DNA of 64,000 nt from an uncultured Spirochaetota bacterium (GTDB lineage Bacteria; Spirochaetota; UBA4802; UBA5550): positions 1 through 64,000 of the forward strand of contig CALMRZ010000078.1 of NCBI GenBank assembly GCA_937872225.1. The letters run 5' to 3'. Under the pieces are notes generated by a model. That model worked only from the letters and a program-made list of their open reading frames with translations. It had not been told where the DNA came from and did no database searches. The translations under genes and the position numbers were made by a program. Below are positions 12,733 to 38,383 of the stretch, one piece after another; within the stretch, counting starts at the first letter, position 1; each line of letters starts with the position of its first letter.

Positions 12733-12763
12733 TGCAGCTTGTTGACAATTTTGTAATGCTGAA

Positions 12764-12864
12764 GGGGGCCAACGCTGCTCCCGCTTACCCGCCAAAATAG
12801 TACGTCCTGTACTCTGGCGGGCGGGGGCATCCTGTCCCCTGTGCGCGTGAGCGGCTTGGCCCCC
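12764..12864 (-). ncRNA. Structured element with two GGA-loop hairpins (possible CsrA-binding RNA), copy 2
   Basis: Outer arms 12764-12772 and 12856-12864 pair over 9 bp (GGGGGCCAA/TTGGCCCCC). Inside, read on the minus strand, are a hairpin GGGG-ACAGGATG-CCCC (12823-12840) and a second with base CCCGCCA/TGGCGGG (12788-12821) and apex AGTACAGGACGTACT. Both loops hold CAGGA(T/C)G, the form of the CsrB repeat. The topology equals that of the element at 37627-37728. It runs antisense to the flanking genes, so it is not simply their terminator or leader. Expression is unproven. Confidence 0.4.
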
Positions 12865-12913
12865 TTGTATGTTGAAATTGGTCCGGACCAGCATATTGGA
12901 GGACAGAATCAGG

Positions 12914-37572: not shown

Positions 37573-37626
37573 ATGTATTCTCCGGGTTCGGTTTAAAATG
37601 TTCATATGCTCATAGAGCACAGAAAC

Positions 37627-37728
37627 AAGCCGGGATATGCCCCGGCGAGCAGGCGACATGGATGTCGCCGATTCCGCCGAGTCAACATGGATGTTATGCG
37701 AGGCGGACGAGTGGGGCATTCCCGGCTT
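37627..37728 (+). ncRNA. Structured element with two GGA-loop hairpins (possible CsrA-binding RNA), copy 1
   Basis: Outer arms 37627-37643 and 37713-37728 pair over 16 bp with one bulge. Inside are hairpin P2, GGCGACA-TGGA-TGTCGCC (37652-37669), and hairpin P3 with base TCCGCC/GGCGGA (37673-37678/37702-37707) and apex AACA-TGGA-TGTT (37684-37695). Both apices match ACANGGANGU, the CsrA/RsmA consensus with GGA in the loop. The 3' arm is followed by CTTTCATATT, a weak terminator tail. It lies between the ADC-like and Nudix genes, on the same strand. It could be a stand-alone sRNA, a 3' UTR element or a dispersed repeat. Confidence 0.5.
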
Positions 37729-37888
37729 TCATATTAAGAATAAGCCCGTTATCTTGTAACGGAATTTATATTGACATTCCCCTTTCGTCCGGTTATACAT
37801 ACTCAAAATGGCGTCGTTGGATTCCCCGGCCTGTACAGGCGACCATTATTACTCTTCGCGAATAATTTTATACCGCAAGGACAACCCT

Positions 37889-38383
37889 ATGCCACAGATG
37901 CGATTCTGCCCCTGGTGCGGAAGCCAGCTCGGAAAAAAAGAAATCGAAGGAAAGGAATACGCGGCCTGCGCGGCCGGCGGGTGCGGTTATGTCTTCTGGG
38001 ACAGCCCCCTGACGGTCGTGGCCGCCATCGTGGAGCATGAAGGGTCGGTCATCCTGGCCCGGGGGAGGGGGTGGCCCGAAAAGATGTTCGGACTCGTGAC
38101 GGGGTTCCTTGAAAAGGGGGAATCGCCCGAGGACGCCGTGGTCCGCGAGGTCCGCGAGGAACTGGGCCTCACCGCCGCCGTGCGGGGCCTTGTCGGCATA
38201 TATCCTTTCTTCCAGAAAAACCAGCTTATCCTCGCATACGATCTGGTCGCCGAGGGCGAGATCTCCCTCAACGAGGAACTGGAGGAGATACGACGCGTCA
38301 GTCCCGACAAGCTGCGGCCCTGGCCCTTCGGCACCGGCATCGCGGTGGAGGACTGGCTCAAAAAAAGACAAGCGGAAGGTTGA
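37889..38383 (+). CDS. Nudix hydrolase with N-terminal zinc ribbon
   Basis: ATG 37889 follows AAGGA at 7 nt and gives 164 residues. A zinc ribbon opens the protein (RFCPWCGSQL and later CAAGGCGY). The Nudix box spans residues 72-94: GFLEKGESPEDAVVREVREE followed by LGL, a perfect GX5EX7REUXEEXGU. This layout resembles the NADH pyrophosphatase (NudC) branch, but the upstream domain of NudC and its SQPWPFP signature are missing (a PWPFG is seen near the C-terminus). Substrate: some nucleoside diphosphate derivative. The TGA is one base before the acylase start, so they form an operon. Confidence 0.92.
   Translation: MPQMRFCPWCGSQLGKKEIEGKEYAACAAGGCGYVFWDSPLTVVAAIVEHEGSVILARGRGWPEKMFGLVTGFLEKGESPEDAVVREVREELGLTAAVRGLVGIYPFFQKNQLILAYDLVAEGEISLNEELEEIRRVSPDKLRPWPFGTGIAVEDWLKKRQAEG

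Follow-up and report, generated by a model that had tools for sequence, protein, structure and literature searches.

The Locus and Its Predicted Fold

The window analyzed here, i.e., the whole stretch of 64,000 nucleotides, belongs to the genome of an uncultured Spirochaetota bacterium (G000; 4.69 Mb in 95 contigs, 97.7% complete). Between two genes on its forward strand lies an element of about 100 nt, in which a long closing stem (P1) encloses two hairpins (P2 and P3; Table 1).

Table 1. Features at the locus and second copy of the element in the window.
Feature	Position	Strand	Remarks
Upstream gene, 239 aa	36853..37572	+	Element begins 55 nt past its stop codon, in sense orientation
P1, 5' arm of closing stem	37627..37649	+	Ends in GCGAG, predicted to form tandem G.A pairs with CGAG of the 3' arm; from fold and covariation
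P2 hairpin	37652..37669	+	GGCGACA-UGGA-UGUCGCC, first CsrA-type loop; from fold
P3 hairpin	37673..37707	+	Internal GAG/CGA motif; its loop, ACA-UGGA-UGU, is the second of the CsrA type; from fold
P1, 3' arm of closing stem	37708..37728	+	From fold and covariation
Sigma-70-type promoter	37771..37799	+	TTGACA (37771-37776), 17-nt spacer, TATACA; directed away from the element, to the NUDIX-like gene
Downstream gene, NUDIX-like	37890..38383	+	Nudix box recognized by eye; own promoter 3' of the element
Second, diverged copy of the family	12756..12869	-	33.7 bits, E 1.1e-5; loops ACAGGATGC and TACAGGACGTA, GGA in both

The initial annotation had described an intergenic structure with a 16-bp outer stem, two ACA-UGGA-UGU hairpins and a terminator-like tail. 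Gene calls confirmed the intergenic location, and folding recovered the stem and both hairpins. The minimum free energy of positions 37607-37760 was -63.1 kcal/mol, as compared to -44.8 ± 4.4 kcal/mol for dinucleotide shuffles (z = -4.2), and none of 200 shuffles was equally stable. The sequence ACATGGATGT occurred twice in the window (37656-37665 and 37685-37694), both times within the element, with 0.13 occurrences expected. The tail turned out to be merely CTTTCATATT and was not conserved among the other copies described below. Since the reverse strand of the element was nearly as foldable (z = -4.25), fold stability alone cannot assign the strand. No Rfam family, CsrB and RsmX/Y/Z included, matched anywhere in the window.

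Because the element is oriented in sense to the upstream gene, read-through from this gene would yield RNA of the GGA strand. Its position between the upstream stop codon and the TTGACA promoter places it outside the leader of the NUDIX-like gene, so that it would be transcribed only via this read-through or from some unseen promoter.

A Dispersed Intergenic Repeat Family

Far from being a single-copy RNA gene, the element belongs to a repeat family whose copies are dispersed and strictly intergenic. A covariance model built from 27 copies (R1) yielded at least 24 matches in G000, at least 37 in G004, at least 15 in G003, at least 9 in G005 and at least 5 in G001, all genomes of one genus; these counts are lower bounds. 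For G002, of the same genus, there was no R1 match among the matches listed. Diverged copies were found by R1 in G033, G020, G015, G023, G011 and G042, genomes of the same order but of different genera or families. When 393 genomes of the phylum were searched at reduced sensitivity, the family appeared in this genus and one relative only. The public collection contained four exact core matches, from 'Spirochaetes bacterium isolate Zod_Metabat.30', and the core pattern was absent from the viral contigs, plasmids and phages searched.

In longer copies (about 170 nt), the tip of P3 is replaced by two further GGA hairpins, and some long copies carry inverted inserts with TCC on the sense strand. 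Composite copies were also seen at L028, L046, L074, L116 and L146-L148, where extra inverted hairpins with TCC loops lie in P2 or replace the 5' part. In three copies from two genomes (L064, L070 and L022), the P3 loop is swapped for a stretch of about 38 nt, AATCCCGAT...GGTTTCGGGATT, without GGA.

A different type of intergenic repeat was noted in G000 (contigs C28 and C64) at L186 11430-11660, L187 960-1420, L188 290-480, L212 2000-2200 and L215 15350-15680. In it, CCCGCGRCANGGANGYCGCGGG and a subsequent GGCGYKCGWSTCTGCAGGAGGCTGCATACGAACGCC make up a GGA double hairpin that resembles P2-P3 and is in some cases present on both strands of a single element; the P1 stem of the family is lacking. 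At the related loci L187 4930-5130 and L224 8230-8400, upstream of long genes, a further GGA hairpin (GCGACAGGATGTCGC or GCCGGCAGGATGCCG) comes after GCAAACAGGATGTTTGC.

Insertion Upstream of Promoters

Coding-potential gene calls placed all of about 99 copies outside genes. Between tandem genes, 43 of 57 copies were antisense and 14 sense; 31 copies lay in divergent and five in convergent pairs. Outward-directed TTGAC (-35) boxes clustered sharply at 40-60 nt from P1 on either side (left side, 26 copies; right side, 17). Within 35-80 nt of P1, 43 TTGAC boxes were directed outward and 6 inward, a pattern present in every genome group. Counts of inward promoter-like sites near the copies were 19 on the left (15.0 expected) and 17 on the right (11.7 expected), revealing no promoter into the element, and a conserved U-tract or terminator was not found across copies.

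Part of the ISKra4 group of insertion sequences (ISs) is known to insert upstream of sigmaA promoters with duplications of 8-9 bp (PMC3942029), and the family shows both properties, the duplications in a subset of its copies. Targeting of this kind accounts for most of the placement, but not fully for the antisense excess between tandem genes. This excess had been considered as selection against GGA in mRNAs, an idea that was dropped after promoter-upstream targeting emerged; given the 26 to 17 split of the outward -35 boxes between left and right, the antisense bias is no longer evidence of RNA function.

An empty site was found in G004, where the same two genes are adjacent, about 100 nt apart, and the element is missing. 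The upstream protein is 83% identical, and a matching TTGACA promoter directly follows its gene. The comparison suggests that the promoter at 37771..37799 is the likely insertion target of the window copy.

The initial annotation had proposed a dedicated sRNA gene of about 100 nt that sequesters CsrA. The fold with its covariation, the two SELEX-like loops and their conservation, and a csrA gene in the genome all speak for such an RNA, and these parts of the proposal stood (see below). The discrete sponge gene did not: the element is a multi-copy transposable repeat with a locus empty in a sister genome, the flanking promoters are directed away from it, no terminator is conserved, and the Rfam families of CsrB/RsmZ-type sponges are unmatched. 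A dedicated sponge gene is thus regarded as very unlikely.

Terminal Repeats, Target Duplications and an ISKra4-Type Partner

The family very probably represents a non-autonomous MITE of the ISKra4 type, judging from its short, non-coding and widely dispersed copies and from their ends. In the best-preserved subset, the terminal repeats GGTAGCAGT...ACTGCTACC are common to remnants of ISKra4-family ISs. In G004, and also in certain other copies, a further inverted repeat, GGTAGCAGT-ATAATTTTA ... TAATTTACG-ACTGCTACC, flanks P1, and 9-bp direct repeats lie outside it. These duplications were exact in GTGAAATGA, TATAAAATA, TATTATTAA and GCTCCTAAT, and others had one mismatch. Six G004 copies (L066, L076, L107, L110, L111 and L038) combined clear GGTAGCAGT ends with 9-bp duplications. 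A combined score of at least 16 was reached by five copies and by none in five re-pairings, and the same ends occurred 22 times in G004 and G000, with no control matches. The window copy has no recognizable GGTAGCAGT end or duplication; it is assigned to the family on the basis of its core, its promoter spacing and the empty site.

At L174 3001, a GGTAGCAGT-type end precedes a broken transposase gene that is similar to the ISKra4 family (NF033572, E 7.9e-11); the match stays under the curated cut-off, as the search used a fragment only. A related ISKra4-like remnant with the same end was present in G002 (L182 1418). The transposase genes seen were broken remnants, and an intact ISKra4-like copy was not found. 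At L174 3764-5395, the ISKra4-like remnant stops about 300 bases before an ORF of 543 amino acids that by eye resembles an IS66-type transposase.

Interior-less derivatives of about 54-67 bp were found at L171 3001-3054, L172 3001-3067 and L173 3001-3058. Since they share the ends and 9-bp duplications, the GGA interior is dispensable for transposition. These findings also bear on the idea that the loops, in the form of single-stranded DNA, are recognition sites for a recombinase or transposase when the element moves. Hairpin loops are recognized in this way in HUH and integron systems, which gives the idea some appeal; the 9-bp duplications and terminal repeats, in contrast, point to a transposase of the DDE type that works on double-stranded ends, and the interior-less derivatives have moved. 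Recognition of the loops as DNA is hardly to be expected. An integron attC site or an IS200/REP (RAYT) element, both considered for the variable palindrome, were ruled out by the 9-bp duplications, the terminal repeats and the missing GTTRRRY ends.

Conservation of the Structure and Preference for the GGA Strand

Compensatory change, which had been proposed as a check on the structure, was evident in the alignment of the 27 copies. Overall, 85.8% of cells were paired, as compared to about 40% in slid controls. Two-sided changes affected 24 pairs, versus 13.2 in shuffles, and the covariation score was 0.268, versus 0.131 in shuffles and at most 0.099 in slid controls; none of 500 shuffles reached either value. 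P1 differs widely in sequence between copies and holds most of the covariation, with 19 of its 20 pairs changed on both sides. Caution is required here: as replication-associated (quasipalindrome) correction can keep long near-palindromes complementary, P1 covariation alone is not proof of RNA function.

With regard to the strand, P1 contained 54 G.U versus 29 A.C combinations (p 0.008), and the sense fold was the more stable one in 67 of 98 copies; both observations would favor the GGA strand. In addition, the conserved CGAG/CGAG junctions at the base of P1 and inside P3 could form tandem G.A pairs on this strand only.

The opposite strand might instead be functional, its UCC loops serving in 3' regions as anti-Shine-Dalgarno sequences or as terminator hairpins. 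The antisense orientation of 43 of the 57 copies between tandem genes fits this, as the mRNAs then carry UCC, often within about 50 nt after the stop codon; read-through would mostly make the UCC strand, which counts against a sense RNA. Against a role of UCC stand the position N that separates U from UCC, which varies or is absent and so breaks a contiguous anti-Shine-Dalgarno match, the G.U and stability bias, the tandem CGAG/CGAG motifs that are meaningful on the GGA strand only, the missing conserved U-tract, and the rarity of copies in convergent pairs, where terminators are expected. A function of the UCC strand is judged highly improbable.

GGA Loops of the Csr/Rsm Type

The hairpin loops of 98 distinct copies contained GGA 173 times, TCC 7 times and neither 40 times. 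Conservation of GGA, which the initial annotation had suggested as a check, was confirmed for both loops across diverged copies. Among 76 short copies, it was present in P2 of 73, in P3 of 68 and in both hairpins of 66; after grouping into 22 clusters (below 0.72 similarity), the respective numbers were 20, 18 and 16. With stricter loop boundaries, 19 of 22 P2 loops had GGA, versus 4.1 expected after shuffling the loop letters. Loop positions flanking GGA vary or drop out, but with few exceptions the loops read C-A(N)GGA(X)-G. Some copies no longer have GGA and show CGA or AAA loops.

A loop-masked model with both loops as N (R2) guarded against circularity. In 843 kb of G000, R2 recovered the same elements and no GGA-less look-alikes except known decayed copies. 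In a model-free scan of the same 843 kb, GGA was the commonest loop of intergenic perfect hairpins. A loop-less model of P2 and P3 only (A3) was dropped due to poor alignment.

The CsrA-type loop form claimed at the outset equals that of the RsmZ stem-loops bound by RsmE, i.e., A(N)GGAX closed by a C-G pair, which leaves loops of 5 nt if N is missing; the hexaloop ANGGAX set directly on the stem is the high-affinity form (PMC4005645). Judging from loop form and conservation, there is an even chance that the loops are CsrA sites which would be exposed on transcription.

Alternatively, the loops may belong to an ordinary MITE of the ISKra4 type. Its hairpins would then play no role as RNA, GGA would have been kept by descent from a few master copies, and P1 would have been compensated by palindrome repair in replication. 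No RNA is required to account for location and spread, for which terminal repeats, 9-bp duplications, the transposase partner and promoter targeting suffice, and the reverse strand folds equally well. However, the P2 and P3 stems diverge across subfamilies and families while GGA and the A(N)..(X) frame persist and neighboring loop positions vary. Moreover, the interior-less derivatives indicate that the interior is unneeded for movement, and the extra hairpins acquired by long copies again bear GGA. An ordinary MITE is therefore a possible, though rather doubtful, explanation.

A Putative Mobile CsrA Decoy

The csrA gene expected from the initial annotation is present in G000 as a single copy (C28, positions 71190-71345; E 3e-24) that encodes a canonical protein and adjoins an ORF in the position of fliW. 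In bacteria with the fliW-csrA arrangement, FliW is regarded as the main determinant of CsrA activity, in place of sponge RNAs. Among the genomes of the order that were tested, 22 of 23 have csrA, including those bearing the element. Due to this near-universal occurrence, the presence of csrA is permissive and not diagnostic.

The explanation that fits the evidence best is a MITE family moved by ISKra4-type transposases whose conserved RNA-like interior carries Csr/Rsm-type loops that bind CsrA; its chances as a whole are about even. The non-autonomous MITE would be mobilized by a transposase of the ISKra4 group (prokaryotic Mutator, p-MULT4), and its insertion sites lie upstream of sigma-70 promoters. 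The interior is an RNA-like three-way junction with a long closing stem and two hairpins, each with a C-A(N)GGA(X)-G loop. Transcription of the GGA strand may result from read-through of the upstream gene where a copy is in sense, or else start in antisense at a neighboring promoter; both loops would then bind CsrA, probably as one dimer spanning the two hairpins. Together, the many copies could serve as scattered decoys for CsrA or, in sense copies, recruit it locally to 3' ends, and the CsrA-related activity would have kept the loops conserved in the replicating lineage of the element.

A physiologically relevant decoy effect of the copies is rather unlikely. Likewise only tentatively can it be proposed that a CsrA-binding RNA module arose in a transposable element, which spreads it as a multi-copy mobile decoy of a global translational regulator. 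Relief of transposase or host mRNAs from repression by CsrA would perhaps favor the movement of the element itself. Should CsrA bind to dozens of GGA hairpins carried by a transposon, a mobile element would be changing how much of a global regulator is free, and a route for the origin of Csr sponge RNAs and CsrA sites would be given. A GGA-conserving interior is unusual for a MITE, and the family presents a case in which the interior is better conserved than the ends.

Comparison with Known Systems

Among repeats with a comparable architecture are the BOX elements of Streptococcus pneumoniae, which are not known to have GGA loops. They share with the family the arms that close a variable number of inner hairpins and the intergenic dispersal (PMC10969869), but differ in sequence and mobilizer. 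QMITE1 and QMITE2 of Coxiella burnetii are likewise bacterial MITEs with a structured transcript, some of which gave rise to sRNAs, and QMITE2 has target duplications of 7-9 bp (PMC5896051, PMC10969869). In contrast to the family, a CsrA-type loop module is unreported in the text consulted, and organism and sequence are unrelated.

The ISs and MITEs of the ISKra4 group (p-MULT4) are closest with respect to mobility: duplications of 8-9 bp and insertion upstream of sigmaA promoters agree (PMC3942029), and the terminal repeats are common to the family and the ISKra4-like transposase remnant. Unlike the IS remnants, the family is non-autonomous, about 100-170 bp long and endowed with a conserved structured interior that the remnants lack. 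In the open-licence papers searched on CsrA with MITEs, palindromic repeats, ISs or spirochaetes, no precedent for a MITE with Csr-type hairpins was found, an absence that is weak evidence. The nearest remark concerns the IS200-derived 5'tnpA RNA, which holds three GGA copies and might merit a CsrA-binding test (PMC12594629).

With the CsrA-sequestering RNAs of the RsmZ/CsrB/McaS type, the element shares the display of A(N)GGAX in hairpin loops on a C-G pair, in 5- and 6-nt forms like those of RsmZ SL2-SL4 (PMC4005645). It differs from them in that it has two sites in its basic form and three to four in long copies, that its CsrA binding is putative and that it has no visible promoter or terminator of its own. 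Unlike these RNAs, it is a multi-copy, transposable element inserted upstream of the promoters of other genes.
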